Assembly (NCBI GenBank): GCA_027488975.1
Contig: JAIYAQ010000029.1
Coordinates: 79,007-143,006 of the forward strand
Reading direction: 5' to 3'
Source of the DNA: Cyanobium sp. E1_MAG_00006
GTDB taxonomy: Bacteria; Cyanobacteriota; Cyanobacteriia; PCC-6307; Cyanobiaceae
DNA: 64,000 nucleotides
In this document: one piece after another, positions 35,238 to 47,279 of the stretch
How the letters are laid out: the number at the start of each line of letters is the position of its first letter
Position numbering within the stretch: the first letter of the stretch is position 1
Notes under the pieces: model-generated
Database searches by the model: none
What the model saw: only the letters and a program-made list of their open reading frames with translations
Told to the model about the DNA's origin: nothing
Program-made: the position numbers and the translations under genes

Positions 35238-35618
35238 CCGGGAGGCCTCCCTTCGTCAGCCTCCACAGCGTGGTCGAGCAACAGCGCCCGCATCAGACAG
35301 ATGCGGGAGGAGGACGTTGTCTCGCAGCCGCTGGCCGCTACCCCGCCTTTGATGCGGTGCTTCTGGCGCGGTTCATCGGCGTCTCTCTCCCTTCCTTGCG
35401 GCCCTGGCGGCGTGGCCGCACGGTCTGCCAGACCCGCCACTGGTTCCGCCACCAGGCCGGGGTGATCAGCAACGGTTGCCAGGTGCTGCACTACTGAGTG
35501 GCCGAGTCATCCATCGCCAATGGAGCCCGATGGGGACGTTGTCTATGTCATTTGGCAGTTGCGCCCGCAGAGGCAATGCGCCGAGGCTGAGCTGGTTGGA
35601 ACCGTTTCGTACGCCCGC

Positions 35619-37289
35619 ATGCTCCCTTGGCTCCTGGCCGCCGTCGCCCTGGCGGCGGTCGTGCTCATGGCTCCTTTGCTGGGGCGACATCTGTTTGAAG
35701 TGTTTGATGGGAGGCCCCAACCCGCCTGGGATCGCTGGCTGAATCCCATCGAGGACGCTCTGCTGCGCTGGATCGGGGATGCCGGCCGCAGTGCTGAATC
35801 CGCCGCCGGTTACCTGGCGCCGCTGCTGATCAGTAATGCGTTGTTTGCCCTGCCGCCCCTGGGGCTGCTGCTGCTGCAGCCGGGCTGGCTCAACCCCCAG
35901 GGATTTGGGGGGCTGCGCTGGGATCTGGCGCTGCACACCACCATCTCCTTCCTTACCAACGCCGATCAGCAGCATCTGATCCCCGAGCAGAGCCTGGGGA
36001 ACCTGGCCCAGCTGGGGGCCATGCAGTTCCTGATGTTCGTCTCGGCGGGCACTGGGCTGGCGGTGGGCTTTGCCGTGATCCGCGGGCTCAGTGGCCGGCA
36101 GATCGGCAACTTCCACTGCGACCTGCTGCGCTCACTGACCCGGGTGCTGATCCCTGGCTCGCTGCTGCTCGCGCTGTTCCTGCTGGTTTGCGGCGTGCCG
36201 ATGACCCTGGCTCCGCCCTTGGAGATCTCCACCCTCGATGGGGGCAGGCAGCTGCTTCCCCGCGGACCGATCGCCCTGTTCGAGGCGATCAAGCAGCTGG
36301 GTGAGAACGGCGGCGGCTTCGTGGGCGCCAACTCAGCGCACCCCTACGAGAACCCCACCCTGCTCACCAACCTGGTGAGCACCTGGGCGATGCTGATCAT
36401 CCCGGCGGCCACGATCGATGCCTTCGGGCGGTTCGTGGGCAACCGGCGTCAGAGCAATCTGCTGCTGGCCCTGGTGTTCGGCTTGCTGCTGATCGGCGCC
36501 GTGGTGGCCATGGCAGCGGAGCAGGCCGGTAACCCTGTGCTCTCGAGCTGGCTCAGTGGGCCCAACCTGCAGGGCAAGGAGGTGCGTTTCGGAGCCCCAC
36601 TTACCGGGCTGTGGTCGGTGGTGACCACCGGCACCATGACCGGCGCGGTGAACGGGATGATCGATGCAACTATGCCGCCGACGATCCTCATCACCCTGTT
36701 TAATCTGTTTCTGCAGGTTGTATTCGGCGGCCAGGGCACTGGTGTTGCCTACCTGCTGGTGTTCGTTCTGCTGGCGGTGTTTCTCACCGGGCTGATGGTG
36801 GGGCGCACACCGGAATTCCTGGGCCGCAAGGTGGAGAAGGCCCAGGTGGTGTGGGCCAGCCTGATCCTGCTGATCCACCCGGTCTTCGTGCTGATTCCCG
36901 CCGCCCTCACCCTGGCCGGTGGTGACACGCTTGCAGGTATCAGCAATCCCGGCCCCCACGGCATCAGCCAGGTGGTGTACGAGTACGCCTCGGCGGCCGC
37001 CAACAATGGCAGCGGTCTGGAGGGCCTCGGCGACAACACACCCTGGTGGAACCTCACCACCAGCCTCAGTCTTCTGGGCGGCCGTTACCTGCCGATCGCG
37101 GCCCTGCTGGCCCTCGCCGATGGCATTCGCCGCAAGCCGGCCCTCGAGCCCAGCCCTGGCACCCTGCGCACCGACACCGCCCTGTTCACCGGAGTGACCG
37201 CTGTGGTGCTGGTGATTCTCGGTGCCCTCACCTTCTTCCCGGTGCTGGCCCTCGGGCCTATCGCGGAAGCCCTCACCCTTGTGGCCTGA
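35619..37289 (+). CDS. kdpA: Potassium-transporting ATPase subunit A
   Basis: [40 protein letters not shown]; start uncertain (35520 also possible). Confidence 0.95.
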
Positions 37290-37290
37290 C

Positions 37291-39387
<2,097 letters not shown>

Positions 39388-39413
39388 CCCGCTCCTCCCT
39401 CCCAGAGAACTCC

Positions 39414-39602
39414 ATGCTCCGCGTTCTGAACGTCCGTTTCTGGCTGCCTCTGCTGCTCGTGGCCGGCACCCTGCTCATCGCCCCGCTGTTTCGCAGCAGC
39501 CAGCCGCCCCTTCAGAGCCACACCCTGGCCCTGCTGCTATGCGGCACCGCTGCCCTCTCGGCCTATCTGTTCGCCGTCATCGCCCAACCGGAGAAGTTCT
39601 GA
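39414..39602 (+). CDS. Small Kdp membrane subunit (KdpF/KdpG-like)
   Basis: 62 aa, two TM segments, C-terminus AYLFAVIAQPEKF, located between kdpB and kdpC. Confidence 0.75.
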   Translation: MLRVLNVRFWLPLLLVAGTLLIAPLFRSSQPPLQSHTLALLLCGTAALSAYLFAVIAQPEKF

Positions 39603-40141
39603 TGTCGTTCACTGCCCAACTGCTCAGGGGGGTGCGCGTCACTCTCGTGCTCTGGCTGCTCACCGTGGTGGTGGTCACCCTGCCCATGCTCGGCCTGGCT
39701 CGGGTGGTCGCCCCCGATGCCGCCAGCGGCAGCGTGCTCCGCATCGGCGATCAGGTTGTGGGTTCCCGCCTCATCGGCCAACCCTTCAGCTCCGCGCGCT
39801 ACATGCAGGGCCGGCCGGCCGGCGGCGCCAACCTGGCACCCAGTAATCCTGAGCTGGCCAAGCGCGTGGCTGAGGCCGCCAGCCGCTGGGAGCTTGCCGG
39901 CGTGAGCCAACCCGCCTCGGATTTGCTGATGGATTCAGCCTCCGGCGTGGACCCTCACATCAGCCTGGCGGCGGCCCGTCAGCAGCTGCCGCGCCTGGCC
40001 CGCGAACGCCAGGTGCCCATTGCCGAACTCGAGCGGCTGCTGCGGCAGCACCAGGAAGGGCCTCTGCGCCTGCAGGCCATTGAGCCGGTGGTGAACGTGC
40101 TCACCTTCAACATGGCCCTCGACCGTCTGCGGCCCCGATGA
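39602..40141 (+). CDS. kdpC: Potassium-transporting ATPase subunit C
   Basis: GSRLIGQPFSSARYMQGRPAG; SASGVDPHISLAAARQQLPRLARER. Confidence 0.95.
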   Translation: MSFTAQLLRGVRVTLVLWLLTVVVVTLPMLGLARVVAPDAASGSVLRIGDQVVGSRLIGQPFSSARYMQGRPAGGANLAPSNPELAKRVAEAASRWELAGVSQPASDLLMDSASGVDPHISLAAARQQLPRLARERQVPIAELERLLRQHQEGPLRLQAIEPVVNVLTFNMALDRLRPR

Positions 40142-41241
40142 TCCGCTCCACCCATCGGCGCGGCCGCCACAAGGTGTTCATCGGCATGGCACCCGGTGTG
40201 GGCAAAACCTGCCGCATGCTCCAGGAAGGTAGGGAGGCGTTGCGGGAGGGCACCGATGTGGTGGTGGGCCTGCTTGAAACCCATGGCCGCCAGGAAACCG
40301 CCAAGCAGGCCGAGGGACTGGAGCAGATCCCTCGCAAACGGGTGAGCTACCAGGATGTTGATCTGGAAGAGATGGATGTGGCGGCGGTGCTCGCCCGCCG
40401 GCCCCAATTGGTGCTGGTGGATGAGCTGGCCCACACCAACGTGCCGGGCAGCGAACGGGAGAAGCGCTGGCAGGACGTCGAGATGCTGCTGCTCGCTGGC
40501 CTGGATGTGTACTCCACGCTGAACATTCAGCACCTGGAGAACCTCAACGACCTGGTGGCCGAACTCACCGGCGTTGTGGTGCGCGAGCGCATCCCCAACC
40601 GTGTGCTGGAACTGGCCGATGAGGTGGTGCTGGTCGATGTGACCCCCGAAACGCTGCAGGAGCGGCTCAGGGAAGGGAAGGTCTACGCCCCCGAAAAGGT
40701 GGGCCAGGCCCTGGCCAATTTTTTCCAGCGACGTCACCTGGTGGCCCTGCGGGAGCTGTCGCTGCGGGAGGTGGCCGATCGGGTCGAGAACGACATCCTT
40801 CCTGCCCTGACGCCCCTGCGGGAGCGGGTGATGGTCTGCCTGGCCAACTACCACACCAGCAAGCGCCTGCTGCGCCGCGCCGCCCGCCTGGCGGCCGCCA
40901 TGGATGCTCCCCTGCTGGCGCTGACGGTGCAGGATCCCAACCGCTTCCTCAGCCGCGAGGAATCGCTGATCCAGGACGAATGCCGCCAGCTTTGCGACGA
41001 CGTGGGCGGCACGTTTCTGCGCGAGGAGAGCGCCGAGATCCTGCCGACGATCGCCCGGGTGGCCCAGGAGCGGCGCATCACCCAGATCGTGCTGGGTCAA
41101 ACGATGCGCTCACGCCTCAAGGCCCTGTTCCGCCGGCCTCTGTCGGAGCGACTGCAGCACCAGCTGCGCGGCCTCAGTATCGATCTGCACCTGATCTCCG
41201 AGGGGTTGCCGGCGCAGGCCCAGGAGGACATCGGCGCGTGA
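40138..41241 (+). CDS. kdpD: Stand-alone KdpD N-terminal sensor domain (KdpD + USP), no kinase domain
   Basis: RRGRHKVFIGMAPGVGKTCRMLQEGREAL; LVDELAHTNVPGSEREKRWQDVEMLL; ends before any H-box. Confidence 0.9.
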   Translation: MIRSTHRRGRHKVFIGMAPGVGKTCRMLQEGREALREGTDVVVGLLETHGRQETAKQAEGLEQIPRKRVSYQDVDLEEMDVAAVLARRPQLVLVDELAHTNVPGSEREKRWQDVEMLLLAGLDVYSTLNIQHLENLNDLVAELTGVVVRERIPNRVLELADEVVLVDVTPETLQERLREGKVYAPEKVGQALANFFQRRHLVALRELSLREVADRVENDILPALTPLRERVMVCLANYHTSKRLLRRAARLAAAMDAPLLALTVQDPNRFLSREESLIQDECRQLCDDVGGTFLREESAEILPTIARVAQERRITQIVLGQTMRSRLKALFRRPLSERLQHQLRGLSIDLHLISEGLPAQAQEDIGA

Positions 41242-42239
41242 GGCTGTTCAAGCCAGCGATCGTCCTGGTGTGGGCGATCTGGCTGCTGATCCTGCTGCTG
41301 GAGCTGGCCACACCTCCGGCTGTCGTGCTCGGCATTCTCTATGTCGTGCCGCTGCTGCTCGGGGCCTCGCAGCGCACGCCCGCCCGGGCCTGGCGCTTTC
41401 TGCTGATCAGCTGTCTGGCCACCCTGATGAACCTGCTCCTGCCACGGCCGATCGATCACAACCTGGTTGTGGTGCTCACCAATCGTCTGCTGGTCTGCCT
41501 CGTTCTGGGCGTGACCACCGCGCTTGTCGTGCGGAACCAGACCCTGCAAAGACAACGCACAGCTCTGGACGTGGAGCTGGCGCAGGCGCAGCTGCGCGGC
41601 GATGTGATCGCCACCCTCGCCCATGACATCAAGACTCCGGTGCTGGGGACCCTGGCCTCCCTGTCCCTGCTGGAGAGTGATGGCGTGGTCGAGGCCATCC
41701 GCAGCAGCCAGCAGCGCTGTCTGCGCCTGATCGACGACCTGCTGCAGGTGTTCCGAGCTGAACAGGAAGGCCTGCGGTTGCAGCTGCAGCCCTGCAATCT
41801 CTTGGCCATTGCCCAGGAGGCCCTGGGCACCGTCGAGCCGATCGCTGCCGCTCGGCAGATCACGCTGGTGCTGCGCCAGCAGGGCTCAGGCGGGATGGAT
41901 CTGCAGGCCGACCCCTCGCTGCTGCAGCGCCTGATCGAGAACCTGCTGCTCAATGCCGTGCACCACAGCCTGCGCGGCCAGCGGGTCTGGCTGCAACTCA
42001 GCCAGCGGGAGGGCGACTGCTGGATCGACGTGCGCGATGGCGGCCAGGGATTCCCGCCGGAGCAGCTGCCGCAGCTGTTTCAACGGTTTGGCCCGCGGGG
42101 CCATGGGGCGCCTGGAGCAGGGCTGGGCCTCTATCTCTGCCGCCTGATCACGGAGGCCCACGGCGGCCGCATCCACGCCAGCAACATCAGCGGCGGTGGT
42201 GCCAGGGTCGAGGTGTGCTTGCCGCAGCCAGTGAGCTAG
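41238..42239 (+). CDS. Membrane histidine kinase, translationally coupled to kdpD
   Basis: GTG start overlaps kdpD stop (GTGA); TM segments; TLAHDIKTPVLGTLASL H-box; LIENLLLNAVHHS N-box; GAGLGLYLCRLITEAHGG G-box. Confidence 0.9.
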   Translation: MRLFKPAIVLVWAIWLLILLLELATPPAVVLGILYVVPLLLGASQRTPARAWRFLLISCLATLMNLLLPRPIDHNLVVVLTNRLLVCLVLGVTTALVVRNQTLQRQRTALDVELAQAQLRGDVIATLAHDIKTPVLGTLASLSLLESDGVVEAIRSSQQRCLRLIDDLLQVFRAEQEGLRLQLQPCNLLAIAQEALGTVEPIAAARQITLVLRQQGSGGMDLQADPSLLQRLIENLLLNAVHHSLRGQRVWLQLSQREGDCWIDVRDGGQGFPPEQLPQLFQRFGPRGHGAPGAGLGLYLCRLITEAHGGRIHASNISGGGARVEVCLPQPVS

Positions 42240-42245
42240 CCAGTC

Positions 42246-42929
42246 GTGGATCTGCTGCTGATCGAGGATGACCAGGCGTACCAGCTGGCGATGGCCAGCC
42301 ACCTGCGCCAACTGGCAGCCGTACGGGAGGTGTGGGTCGCCGACGACGGCGAGCAGGGTCTGGAGCTGCTGGCGAGCCGGCCGGTGGATCTGGTGCTGCT
42401 CGATCTGGTGCTTCCCGGCCTGGGCGGGCTCGCCACCTGTCGCCGCATCACGACCACCACAACCCTGCCGGTGCTGATCCTCACCAGCCAGGAGGATCCG
42501 CTCTGGGTGCAGCGGATCTGGGATGCAGGAGCCCGTGGCTATCTGCACAAGGAGCGAGCACTGGCGCAGGTGGCGCTGGCGCTGGCCTCGCTGCAGGCGG
42601 GGGCCAGCTGGTGGGATCAGAAAGCCACGGCGGCGCTGCAGCGCTCGGATCCTCCTCAGGCCATCGCCACGACAGACCAGAGCGAGCGGCTCAACGGCCT
42701 CACCCAACGCGAACGGCAGGTGCTGGCCTGCCTGGCGGCTGGCGACAACAATCGCGCCATCGCCCAGAAGCTGGGGATCGGCGAGGGAACTGTGCGCAGC
42801 CATGTGCATGTGCTCCTGCAGAAACTGCAGGTGAGCAACCGCACCCAGGCCGCACTGATCTGGCTGGCGGGCAAGCGCCTGAACGAGGCCACCATCAGCT
42901 GCAGGCCCTCGATTGATGGACAGCCATAA
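42246..42929 (+). CDS. NarL/LuxR-type response regulator
   Basis: DLLLIEDDQAY; VDLVLLDLVLPGLGG receiver; LTQRERQVLACLAAGDNNRAIAQKLGIGEGTVRSHVHVLLQKL HTH. Confidence 0.92.
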   Translation: MDLLLIEDDQAYQLAMASHLRQLAAVREVWVADDGEQGLELLASRPVDLVLLDLVLPGLGGLATCRRITTTTTLPVLILTSQEDPLWVQRIWDAGARGYLHKERALAQVALALASLQAGASWWDQKATAALQRSDPPQAIATTDQSERLNGLTQRERQVLACLAAGDNNRAIAQKLGIGEGTVRSHVHVLLQKLQVSNRTQAALIWLAGKRLNEATISCRPSIDGQP

Positions 42930-43534: not shown

Positions 43535-43945
43535 TCAGCGTTGCAACTTCGACCCTCCGCAGTCCTGCCAGCTGCTGAGCAGACGCGCCAGCTCGTCTTT
43601 CATGGTGGCGAGCTCAGCGATCCGCAGGGTGATCGATTCCATCTTTGCCGCAATGCTGTGTTTCAGAACAGAGCAGTTGCAGACCCCCTCGCGCCGCACC
43701 TCCAGGATCCTCGCCAACTCGGGGATCGACACATCCATCGCCCGCAGGGCGCGAATGATCGTCAGCTCAGCGAGATTCTCCTCATCAAACAAGCGATATC
43801 CACCTGCGGAGCGATCCTTGGGCTGGAGCAGGCCCTCATCGCAGTAATAACGGATCGTCTTCACCGGCAGGCCGGTGCGCCTGGCTACCTCGCCGATGCG
43901 CAGGCTGGGAGCGGGGTTATCTGATCGCGATCCTTGGCGGGCCAA
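43535..43945 (-). CDS. MerR-family transcriptional regulator, likely metal/redox responsive
   Basis: LRIGEVARRTGLPVKTIRYYCDEGLLQPKDRSAGGYRLFDEENLAEL; cysteines VCNCSVLK and WQDCGG. Confidence 0.9.
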   Translation of the reverse strand: MARQGSRSDNPAPSLRIGEVARRTGLPVKTIRYYCDEGLLQPKDRSAGGYRLFDEENLAELTIIRALRAMDVSIPELARILEVRREGVCNCSVLKHSIAAKMESITLRIAELATMKDELARLLSSWQDCGGSKLQR

Positions 43946-44018
43946 GGCAACAACCCTCTACCGAGTGGACACTCATCAAGCCTAGGCAGCACCGGAACGC
44001 CCGGCAGCCCGGTCAAGA

Positions 44019-44047
44019 GTCTCCAGCAGTGATGCGTCACTAGAGAG
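44019..44047. promoter_or_regulatory. Imperfect dyad, candidate MerR-type operator for the DUF3721 cluster
   Basis: gtctccagcAGTGAtgcgTCACTagagagat dyad between divergent merR-like gene and DUF3721 genes. Confidence 0.4.
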
Positions 44048-44097
44048 ATTCGCTAGGGTGAGAGTCCAGCAGGCCAGCCTGCGCCAGCATCCCTCCT

Positions 44098-44349
44098 GTG
44101 TCGATCCTTTCAACTCCGTGGCCAGCCCGGGCGGCAGCCGCGATCGGAGCCAATCTTCTGTTGTCCGCCGCCGGCCTCGCCGCTCCAGCCGCAGGTTCGG
44201 GCGGCGTTCCGGCGATGTACGCCACTCAGGCCGAGGCGGAGAAGGCCGCCAAGCTGCATTTCAACTGCAGCGGCGCCCACAGGATGGGAAATCAGTGGAT
44301 GCCCTGTGCCCAGCACGGTGGCGGCCAGGGCTCCTCGCACTCCCACTGA
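44098..44349 (+). CDS. Small exported DUF3721 protein with His-rich tail
   Basis: GTG start; hydrophobic leader; MYATQAEAEKAAKLHFNCSGAHRMGNQWMPCAQH..SSHSH. Confidence 0.75.
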   Translation: MSILSTPWPARAAAAIGANLLLSAAGLAAPAAGSGGVPAMYATQAEAEKAAKLHFNCSGAHRMGNQWMPCAQHGGGQGSSHSH

Positions 44350-44363
44350 GGCCCGTCACGTTC

Positions 44364-44771
44364 ATGGCTCAGTGCGGCGACAAGCCCAAGCGGATCGCTT
44401 TCGGGGTGGCTCCCCTGGGCATCGTCTCCATCGGCATCGTGCCGATGGGGGTTGTGAGCATCGGCGTGGTGCCGATGGGGGTGATCAGCCTCGGTGTGGT
44501 GGGCATGGGCGTGCTGAACGCCGCCGTGGTGGGGATGGGGGTGGTGGTGGCCGGAGTCCATGCCATGGGGATCTGGTCGCTCACCCCCGGCGCCGGCCAT
44601 CATCACCACCGCAGCGCAACTGAGCCGTCCCACCAGCTGCTGGCCTACCCAAGCCGGCAGGTGGCCCTTCAGAAAGCGCGTGAGCTCGGTTGCGATGGCG
44701 TTCACGCCATGGGCAGTCTCTGGATGCCCTGCTCGGAGCATCCAACGCATCAGTCCTCTCACCACCACTGA
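44364..44771 (+). CDS. Glycine-repeat (beta-solenoid-like) protein fused to DUF3721, His-rich
   Basis: Repeats IVPMGVVSIG/VVPMGVISLG/VVGMGVLNAA/VVGMGVVVAG; then GHHHHRS and ARELGCDGVHAMGSLWMPCSEHPTHQSSHHH. Confidence 0.75.
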   Translation: MAQCGDKPKRIAFGVAPLGIVSIGIVPMGVVSIGVVPMGVISLGVVGMGVLNAAVVGMGVVVAGVHAMGIWSLTPGAGHHHHRSATEPSHQLLAYPSRQVALQKARELGCDGVHAMGSLWMPCSEHPTHQSSHHH

Positions 44772-44774
44772 ATC

Positions 44775-44972
44775 ATGCGATCGATCCGTCATCTCAGCTT
44801 GGCGCTGATTGTTGCTCTGCTGGCCTCCACACCTGAAGCCATGGCGTGCGGTGGAGGTGGTTCCGGCAGTTACCGCAAACCCGCTCGTCCGGGCCAGCAC
44901 CAGCATCAACAACGTTCGGTGGCGCCATCCTCTGAAAAGGAATCCACAACTCCCGTTGTTGCGCCCCGATAG
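44775..44972 (+). CDS. Small secreted hypothetical protein
   Basis: Signal peptide MRSIRHLSLALIVALLASTPEAMA then CGGGGSGSYRKPARPGQHQHQQ. Confidence 0.6.
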   Translation: MRSIRHLSLALIVALLASTPEAMACGGGGSGSYRKPARPGQHQHQQRSVAPSSEKESTTPVVAPR

Positions 44973-44994
44973 GAGCGCGTCGGGAGTTGTGGAT
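44942..44994. repeat. Perfect 14-bp inverted repeat with nested inner stem (possible terminator)
   Basis: atccacaactcccg ... cgggagttgtggat; inner gcgcccc-gata-ggagcgc. Confidence 0.7.
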
Positions 44995-45020: not shown

Positions 45021-46649
45021 TTAGAACCTGAAGGTCGTCTTCACCAGCCCGCCGAACTGGCTGAAGCTGTCGCCGGCAGGCGTCTGCTGGCCGAAGGGAC
45101 GGCTCAGATAAATCAGGGCTGGTGTGACCGTGACATTGTCGGTCACCTGGAACTTATACCACCACTCCCAGACATAGTTGCCGTCGTTGGGAGTCACGCC
45201 ACCAGTGAGTGCGGTGGCGAAGACGGGTTGGGCCACAGCAAAGCCGAAGTCATTGCCCTTCTGGAACACATCCGTCCACTGCAGACCCACCATCCAGGAC
45301 TGACTGGTGCTGAGGCTGCCGCGGGGCTGCGGCGTGCTGTATGTCGTGCTGTTGATTCCCCATCCCAGGCTGAGGGAGGGAAGCCAGCCGCTGCGCAGTG
45401 GTTGCCAGAAGGCGCTCAGGCCCAGGGCATTGGTGGCGGCGTTGATGTTGTGATCGATGGCGCTGTGGGTGAACGGCGTGGTGCCTGGAACGAACTGGGT
45501 TTCAGGTTGCACGTAAGACCAGATGGCAGCCAGGCCCCATTGCTCCTGTTGATAGCCGAGCTGAACACTGCCGGTCGAGCCGGAATTCTTGTTGCCAAGT
45601 CCGCCGCCACCGTTCTCTGCCGAAACACTTGGGTTGCCGCTATCGCCATTGGCTGCCACGTAATTGGCACTCAGACTGAAGCCGTTGCTCTGCCACCAGA
45701 GGCCCGCGCCAGCGCCAAGATTCTTGCTGTAGGCCGCCGGTGCGCCATTCACCGTCATCACGTTGAGGATGGTGTCAGACGGGTACACGCTGGGCCACAG
45801 CGCCAGCATGTCTTCCTGCCCCACGCGAGCACCCAGGGTGGCTGTGAAGCCGCCACCGATGGGCCATTGGTAGAAGAGCTTGTCGATGGATACAACATCA
45901 CCGCAGTCTGTCCCAGTGCCGCAATCTTCTTCAAAGGCAACCTCAAGTTCAGCAAGTCCGAGGGAATGCGGTTCCCCGCCAAACACACTGTTGCCAAAGT
46001 TGCCAGCTCGCAGGTTGGTGCGCAGCAGATCCTTGCCGTTGAAGCTGGTGTCCAACGTCAGTTGCAGGTCGTAGTTGAACGTGGTGGCATTGGGCAGCGG
46101 TACGGGGGCCCGCCGCCGCCCTGTGAACTCATTCGGTGCTCGGTTGACCGTGTTGGCCGCTGTGTTGATCGCCGATCCCGAGAAGGTATTGGCCCCCACC
46201 ACGAAGGTGGCCTGACCTCTGAGCTTGGTGGTGGTGGAGAAACGGGTGGCTTCCAGCTCGCCCACCTTGGCCTCAAGACCATCCACGCGGCCCTTGAGCA
46301 CGGCGAGTTCCTTCTCGAACTCCTTCATCAGGCGCTTGAGCTCGTCGGTCACCTCGGTGATCCGATCCAGACAGGCGTTCAGCAGGGCGGCCGCCTCATA
46401 GCGGGTCATCGCCTGGCCGCCCTTGAAGGTGCCGTTGGGGTAGCCGGCCACGCAGCCGTAGCGCTCGATCAGGTTGCTGAGCGCCTGATAGGCCCAGTCG
46501 GTGGGCTTGACGTCGGAGAACTGGGAGATGCTGGTGACCTGCTCCTGGCTGGCGTACTGGCTCACATCCGCCAGGTTGAGACTGGCGGCGTTTGAGGCCA
46601 TCGGCGCCGCAAGGCCAAGAACGATGAGCGAGGAACGCAGAGGAAGCAT
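45021..46649 (-). CDS. OprB-family carbohydrate-selective porin with SLH domain (Som-like)
   Basis: Signal peptide; DVKPTDWAYQALSNLIERYGCVAGYPNGTFKGGQAMTRYEAAALLNACLDRI; C-terminal beta-barrel ending GLVKTTFRF. Confidence 0.92.
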   Translation of the reverse strand: MLPLRSSLIVLGLAAPMASNAASLNLADVSQYASQEQVTSISQFSDVKPTDWAYQALSNLIERYGCVAGYPNGTFKGGQAMTRYEAAALLNACLDRITEVTDELKRLMKEFEKELAVLKGRVDGLEAKVGELEATRFSTTTKLRGQATFVVGANTFSGSAINTAANTVNRAPNEFTGRRRAPVPLPNATTFNYDLQLTLDTSFNGKDLLRTNLRAGNFGNSVFGGEPHSLGLAELEVAFEEDCGTGTDCGDVVSIDKLFYQWPIGGGFTATLGARVGQEDMLALWPSVYPSDTILNVMTVNGAPAAYSKNLGAGAGLWWQSNGFSLSANYVAANGDSGNPSVSAENGGGGLGNKNSGSTGSVQLGYQQEQWGLAAIWSYVQPETQFVPGTTPFTHSAIDHNINAATNALGLSAFWQPLRSGWLPSLSLGWGINSTTYSTPQPRGSLSTSQSWMVGLQWTDVFQKGNDFGFAVAQPVFATALTGGVTPNDGNYVWEWWYKFQVTDNVTVTPALIYLSRPFGQQTPAGDSFSQFGGLVKTTFRF

Positions 46650-46842
46650 GGACCGAATCTCCAGAGCACCACCGTGGTGCCTTGGGCGGAATTGTGCTCT
46701 TTCTCTCCAGTTCGTCACTGGTACTGGAGACTACTGTCAGGGTTTGGGCATCGCAGCCGGGTCAGCGCCATGGTTGTCTGTGTCGCCCTGCGCTGAGCAG
46801 CTTCCATGGGGTCCTGCCGAGGGTCCGGGCAGAGGATGGAGG

Positions 46843-47279
46843 ATGAAAGGCAATGTCCTGCGGCAGATGACGCGGATCTCCTGGCGAGAAACCGTTCTGG
46901 CCACAGCGGCCCTGCCCCTGGCGCCGGCGGCTGCCTGGGCCCAGGCTGATGCCTATCTCGGTAGCGGCTTCCTGGCCGGCTTCCTGCACTCGATCAGCGG
47001 TGTCGATCACCTGTTGCTGCTGGTCGGCATCGGGGCCGCGGCCTCCTGCATTTCTGCGCAGCTGCTGCTCTGGGCTCTGGCTGGGGCTATCGGCGGTGGT
47101 GTGTTCTGAGCGATGGGCGGCACCCTGCCGGCCCAGGAGTTCCTCGCAGCCCTGGCGATTACGGCGGCAGCTTCCAGGCGCTGCGGCGTCTGCCCTTGGC
47201 CTGGCCCGTGGCGTGTGTGCTGCTGGCTCTCTGCGGCGGCGTGTCAGCCCTGGGGCCGATCGGCTTGCTGATGCGCTGA
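46843..47279 (+). pseudogene. Decayed HupE/UreJ-family membrane protein
   Basis: LGSGFLAGFLHSISGVDHLLLLVGIGAAA, then stop; LPAQEFLAALAI and ALRRLPLAWPVACVLLALCGGVSALGPIGLLMR continue in other frames. Confidence 0.65.

Follow-up and report, generated by a model that had tools for sequence, protein, structure and literature searches.

What does a MerR-family regulator control when the genes beside it belong to families without a described function? This question is raised by a locus of Cyanobium sp. E1_MAG_00006, a 2.7 Mb genome of the Cyanobium group. The locus lies within a stretch of 64,000 nucleotides that was analysed as a whole and is called the window here; all positions are those of the window. 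The MerR gene is divergent from genes for two DUF3721 proteins, one of them a fusion with a GLTT repeat, and for a peptide with a CGGGG core. The DUF3721 and GLTT families are without described function, and the fusion, its control by MerR and its CGGGG partner are not described in the literature searched, in which no paper naming DUF3721 was found.

Is this arrangement a dedicated system, or has chance placed these genes together? If it is a system, does it handle a metal, and which one? The family of Prochlorococcus, marine Synechococcus and Cyanobium includes the ocean's most abundant photosynthesisers, and the DUF3721 system is a strong candidate for an undescribed way of handling copper or another metal in picocyanobacteria. 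Should the fusion act as an envelope buffer for copper or zinc, it would fill a gap in what is understood of how very abundant phototrophs manage metals. The MerR-linked Cyanobium version offers a regulated entry point in culturable strains.

Genes and products of the locus

The MerR gene (43535..43945, minus strand) is divergent from three small, tightly packed genes on the plus strand, the arrangement given in the original prediction, and all four ORFs were recovered at the expected positions. ORF1 (44098..44349, 83 aa, GTG start) encodes a short DUF3721 protein with a signal-like N-terminus and a His tail. ORF2 (44364..44771, 135 aa) encodes a GLTT repeat, a His-rich linker and a C-terminal DUF3721. 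The DUF3721 module noted earlier in both is borne out by their scores of 53.8 and 58.9 bits, respectively, against PF12518, for which the Pfam gathering cut-off is 27 bits. ORF2 is also a GLTT member (PF01744, 42.5 bits against a cut-off of 21, in three stretches). It had been read as DUF3721 joined to a repeat domain, which holds, but the nature of the repeat has to be corrected: it is the hydrophobic GLTT decapeptide, VVSIGVVPMG, of which about five copies of this type are present. The fusion protein is 84% identical to that of Cyanobium sp. FGCU6 and 82% identical to that of Synechococcus sp. GreenBA-s, the two closest relatives that have a name.

ORF3 (44775..44972, plus strand) encodes a 65 aa peptide without any Pfam, NCBIfam or PADLOC family match. 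Its hydrophobic leader agrees with the small exported-type peptide first proposed. It is not the His/Gln tail that defines it, as had been thought, but its core, ACGGGGSGSYRKP, which is invariant in the family alignment as ACGGGGSGxYRKP. All matches of this family in the genus adjoin MerR or DUF3721, so ORF3 is a real and dedicated member of the locus. At two loci, L069 and L083, the CGGGG gene is the first after the MerR promoter.

The signature CxGxHxMGxxWMPC is invariant in an alignment of 58 GLTT-DUF3721 fusions from Cyanobium, Synechococcus and Prochlorococcus, its ligand-type Cys, His and Met included, with one extra residue before WMPC in the fusions of some marine Synechococcus. The GLTT part is the most invariant portion of the fusion, and the residues of DUF3721 itself are invariant too, in fusions and short forms alike. 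In the AF2 model the DUF3721 core (pLDDT about 90) consists of a short helix plus a hairpin whose ends carry the two cysteines; the GLTT part is modelled with low confidence, all as short strands. No sequence relatives of DUF3721 or GLTT were found in the PDB, and fold searches gave no significant match. Since no solved relative was found, metal co-ordination by DUF3721 is suggested by its residues only, and the two conserved cysteines could alternatively form a disulfide. From the hydrophobic leader at its N-terminus we infer that the short DUF3721 protein is exported; some Prochlorococcus short forms carry a lipobox-like GCSS.

An SLH-OprB porin gene (45021..46718, minus strand; PF04966 and PF00395) is convergent with the three small genes. 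It adjoins the DUF3721 pair in many relatives and is probably a recurrent neighbour outside the operon. Beyond it lies a decayed remnant of a HupE/UreJ cassette (46843..47276, plus strand) with an in-frame stop and a large internal gap, located by tblastn with the intact copies of a paralogous locus on contig C4 (L008). Searches for RNA elements found none in the window, cobalamin riboswitches included. On the other side, upstream of the MerR locus, a Kdp potassium-uptake cluster (35520-42929) has KdpA, a KdpB-like ATPase and the KdpD sensor domain as a separate protein, followed by a histidine kinase and a response regulator of LuxR type, not OmpR type. At four Cyanobium loci (L050, L057, L064 and L084) a 240-aa protein with a His-rich stretch (cluster c30) is called upstream of the pair.

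The regulator and its two putative operators

The regulator is 136 aa long, and its TTG start aligns with the ATG of relatives. It matches Pfam MerR_1 at 70.8 bits, and PF13411, PF00376 and PF09278 are all above cut-off, giving an HTH followed by a dimerisation helix. The CxC and distal Cys that had drawn attention to it are C89-x-C91 and C129 (in C129-G-G), all invariant in 13 relatives. C129 is the single, conserved Cys after the dimerisation helix in a chain that ends at residue 136. Its PDB relatives are PbrR (5gpe), with which it aligns over 112 residues, CueR and CadR. It is nevertheless below every NCBIfam equivalog cut-off: the best, CadR-PbrR, gives 76.8 bits against 151, and the ZntR, CueR and MerR profiles also fall far short. 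The two-Cys loop after the dimerisation helix, a feature of metal-sensing MerR proteins, is absent, and there is an extra CxC before the helix instead. The iron-sulfur motif of SoxR, CX2CXCX5C, is likewise absent from a C-terminal region that has C129 only; the SoxR profile scores 40.4 bits (cut-off 116.9). As judged by sequence, the regulator is a MerR-family protein of predicted metal-sensing type that we file under none of CadR-PbrR, ZntR, CueR or MerR proper, because equivalog score, distal two-Cys loop and standard target promoter all failed to place it there. A role in anti-phage defence was considered and rejected, as the sole match in a PADLOC search was the generic MerR HTH.

Most intergenic regions at loci of the window's type, type B, contain two dyads, with the same half-sites as the copper-type operator described below. 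In the window the first of these, O1, is CCCTCT-N7-GGACAC (43954..43972). The MerR start lies to one side of it and, to the other, a leftward -10-like TAGGCT (43979-43984 on the minus strand). The type-B consensus is CTCC-N7-GGA, placed likewise, with TAGGNT as the leftward -10-like element; the same half-sites with N7 occur in 11 of 17 type-B MerR loci, where 0.76 would be expected. O1 is a probable site of MerR autorepression.

The second, O2, is CTCC-N17-AGAG (44021..44045, plus strand), recognised from enrichment of the N17 spacing in upstream regions and from alignment. In type-B loci its consensus is CTCC-N17-GGAGA, followed by the conserved -10 of the DUF3721 operon, TAnnnT. In the window this -10-like element reads TAGGGT (44054..44059, plus strand) and stands at the distance conserved in type-B loci. 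Among 45 independent upstream regions, under 80% identical to each other, the N17 spacing is found in 16; in shuffled sequences the mean at N17 is 0.6, and the count is never above 5 whatever the spacing. As a definition of the regulon across the genus, the strict pattern N17-ACTGGAGA proved too narrow.

With N17 in place of N7, the O2 half-sites stand ten bases, or one helical turn, further apart than those of the classic operator. The type-B alignment shows no conserved -35 at 17-19 nt from the -10. A target promoter with the operator inside a spacer of standard length (19-20 bp) is seen at the paralogous copper-type loci but neither in the window nor at the other type-B loci. O2 misfits the classic geometry of MerR activation. 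From the shared half-sites we infer that MerR binds O2. It may act there as two dimers, by looping, or by activation without spacer untwisting. The fullest proposal, that MerR activates an N17 promoter without a -35 by some means other than untwisting a 19-20 bp spacer, and thereby controls an undescribed, family-wide, extracytoplasmic metal-binding DUF3721 system, is put forward tentatively and with considerable doubt. We found no paper on MerR operators with expanded half-sites in the literature search, and the type-B operators offer a way to probe the limits within which MerR activation tolerates non-standard geometry.

Linkage, distribution and metal-gene neighbours

Conserved linkage of MerR and DUF3721 in relatives had been set beforehand as one test of the prediction, and it proved very strong. 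A search with the MerR alignment gave 28 strong matches in the genus, 23 of which lie within 3 kb of DUF3721 (binomial P about 1e-39, a value inflated by relatedness). Among the five unlinked matches, one (G007 C133) adjoins a CGGGG gene and another (G019 C23) is beside a copper-type operator before a CopM-like gene. DUF3721 is present in 22 of 25 genomes of the genus, mostly as pairs about 420-490 bp apart, and the pair occurs three times in the genome of the window: in the window itself and on contigs C13 and C4. These three copies, the linkage to MerR, and an ORF3 that is conserved and always linked exclude chance.

In a wider sample of 388 cyanobacteria, 57 have DUF3721. All 57 belong to the family of the window, in which at most very few sampled members lack it; it is absent from all of the approximately 330 other cyanobacteria sampled. 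The GLTT-DUF3721 fusion is present in 170 of 199 good genomes of the Prochlorococcus/Synechococcus/Cyanobium family, and is retained in streamlined genomes of about 1.6 Mb, including open-ocean ones. Most Prochlorococcus and marine Synechococcus relatives have no adjacent MerR, and neither MerR nor the operators were seen at the loci of these groups that were examined. MerR control therefore looks like an overlay of the Cyanobium group on a family-wide gene. Many Prochlorococcus (approximately 32% GC; L130-L156) have the fusion without an adjacent short gene, at a fixed site away from Znu. As for mobile carriage, no phage match with the fusion and no plasmid match with the copper-type DUF3721 was found.

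A second type of DUF3721 locus is present in some genomes of the genus. Here MerR is divergent from a DUF305 gene, followed by DUF3721, which in these operons is without GLTT, and a PepSY-TM-like fragment. The DUF305 gene scores above cut-off as a CopM metallochaperone, and the loci are near genes for DUF411, multicopper oxidase, glutaredoxin-MauE, two-component and RND proteins. The MerR of these copper-type loci has the same three invariant cysteines as the window MerR, C89, C91 and C129. Their promoter is classic, with a TTGACT -35, the operator TTGACTCTCC-N7-GGAGAG and a 19-nt spacer to a -10-like NATCNT. The strict operator TTGACTCTCC-N7-GGAGA has 15 distinct sites in 25 genomes (a palindromic one, listed twice, was counted once), all just before CopM-like or DUF411 genes, and a reversed-pattern control gave 0 matches in the same genomes. 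Its targets are DUF411 at L185, L191, L192 and L196, and DUF305 at L189, L194 and the type-A loci. The window's own genome has no match to this strict operator. No DUF305/CopM gene is among the ORFs around the window locus, and no copper gene adjoins it, the nearest metal gene being the dead HupE. A literature search found no paper joining DUF305, copper, cyanobacteria and MerR.

Other metal genes accompany the type-B pair. In Prochlorococcus and Cyanobium its neighbours are ZnuABC and cobW, the Znu genes being convergent with it and forming separate units. In marine Synechococcus the fusion without MerR adjoins a Fur-family gene (L106, L109, L111, L144, L148 and L141). In these maps the names ZnuB/C/A, Fur, cobW, RND, HisI and PTPS come from clustering and reading, with representatives confirmed by Pfam for ABC-3, ZnuA, FUR, cobW, ACR_tran and HupE. 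HupE genes are further neighbours of the pair, and a cobalamin riboswitch precedes one of them; riboswitches of this kind, before a HupE next to the pair, are at L007 (6541-6688), L008 (3402-3569), L079 (9651-9814) and L095 (2878-3041). A cobalt role for such HupE has been proposed (PMC4284471). We rejected HupE as part of the window's MerR unit, since its copy here is a decayed remnant and, among relatives, one HupE stands behind a cobalamin riboswitch that is its own.

The pair, HupE and a GNAT gene are common to the window locus and the C4 locus (L008). The C4 copy keeps intact HupE genes, but an in-frame TGA interrupts its MerR; the reverse holds in the window, with an intact MerR and a decayed HupE. 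By their gene content the two appear as a duplication with reciprocal loss. Because O1- and O2-type sites are kept in both, the window MerR may control the C4 operon in trans.

A probable metal-handling operon, its rivals and known systems

We think it fairly probable that the locus is a MerR-regulated metal-handling operon, in which metal-loaded MerR activates genes for small exported metal-binding proteins. In a MerR dimer one subunit would contribute C89 and C91, and its partner C129, to the binding of a thiophilic metal. The dimer would repress the MerR gene from O1 and, when loaded, activate the divergent promoter through O2. Three products would follow: the CGGGG peptide and two DUF3721 proteins, one small and exported and the other with the GLTT repeat. 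The CxGxHxMGxxWMPC modules and His-rich tails would bind metal, extracytoplasmically in the short protein at least, and at the cell envelope the DUF3721 proteins would buffer the metal or pass it on.

The metal reading of the original prediction is favoured by the paralogous locus amid copper genes and by the zinc, cobalt and Fur neighbours; against it, the MerR reaches no metal-specific equivalog cut-off. It is the number of separate contexts (copper loci, Znu/cobW, Fur and HupE) that argues for a metal; these contexts do not tell which metal it is. Copper seems most likely, with zinc or cadmium next and cobalt or nickel third. The window MerR, like PbrR, has a Cys aligned with PbrR C78. In characterised MerR sensors a Cys at this position goes with divalent metals and not Cu(I), which is in tension with copper as the metal.

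Could the locus serve scarcity instead? DUF3721 would then trap zinc or cobalt at the envelope when these are in short supply, Znu or HupE would import them, and MerR would tune supply. The pair does adjoin ZnuABC-cobW in Prochlorococcus and Cyanobium and has OprB porin and HupE neighbours, one HupE behind its riboswitch, and the fusion is retained in streamlined open-ocean genomes. However, the Znu genes are separate, convergent units, the riboswitch puts one HupE under its own control, and the paralogous regulon is of copper-resistance type. MerR sensors normally switch on detoxification when metal is high. We consider a supply role unlikely. It is more improbable that the locus answers redox or oxidant stress at the envelope, with MerR cysteines sensing oxidants or electrophiles and DUF3721 cysteines forming a disulfide or thiol switch. 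The SoxR-type CX2CXCX5C cluster is missing, a disulfide has no need of invariant His and Met or of His-rich tails, and the neighbours are metal genes, not redox genes, although two invariant cysteines stand at the ends of the predicted hairpin, a glutaredoxin-MauE gene is near the paralogous loci, and MerR proteins can sense oxidants, as does SoxR, whose profile matches the window MerR weakly.

That Prochlorococcus and marine Synechococcus have the pair without adjacent MerR or operators, and that GLTT is the most invariant part of the fusion, would also suit a loosely metal-associated envelope protein whose family-wide function is structural and GLTT-driven, the MerR link being a local accident of the Cyanobium group. 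Yet MerR/CopM operons have DUF3721 with no GLTT part, the residues of DUF3721 itself do not vary, and several lineages beyond the Cyanobium group also have it next to Znu or Fur-family genes; of the readings weighed here we give this one the least credence.

How does the proposed metal-handling operon compare with known systems? With CadR/PbrR, ZntR and CueR the window MerR shares the HTH, the dimerisation helix, the divergent gene order and the dyad half-sites. It differs from them in an extra Cys two residues earlier, forming the CxC, in one distal Cys (C129-G-G) in place of the two-Cys loop, in scoring about half of each equivalog cut-off, and in a target-promoter operator of N17 and not N7. 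The ORF1 and ORF2 proteins belong by score to DUF3721 (PF12518) and, for ORF2, the GLTT repeat (PF01744). In Synechocystis, copMRS provides copper resistance by CopM under the two-component system CopRS (PMC4284471, PMC4182526). The likeness lies in an exported envelope protein of small size that bears metal-ligand residues, and the paralogous MerR loci also hold a CopM-family protein; the regulator is MerR here and CopRS there, the window locus is without DUF305/CopM, and DUF3721 is unrelated by sequence to the DUF305 of CopM. Marine Synechococcus have Zur-regulated znu clusters and the BmtA metallothionein (PMC9337993). Zinc-uptake genes likewise adjoin the DUF3721 pair in several relatives, but the regulator families differ, and no transcription unit shared by the two was seen. 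BmtA, like the candidate role of DUF3721, is a case of small metal-binding proteins serving in buffering, but the DUF3721 proteins are unrelated to it and have two cysteines only.
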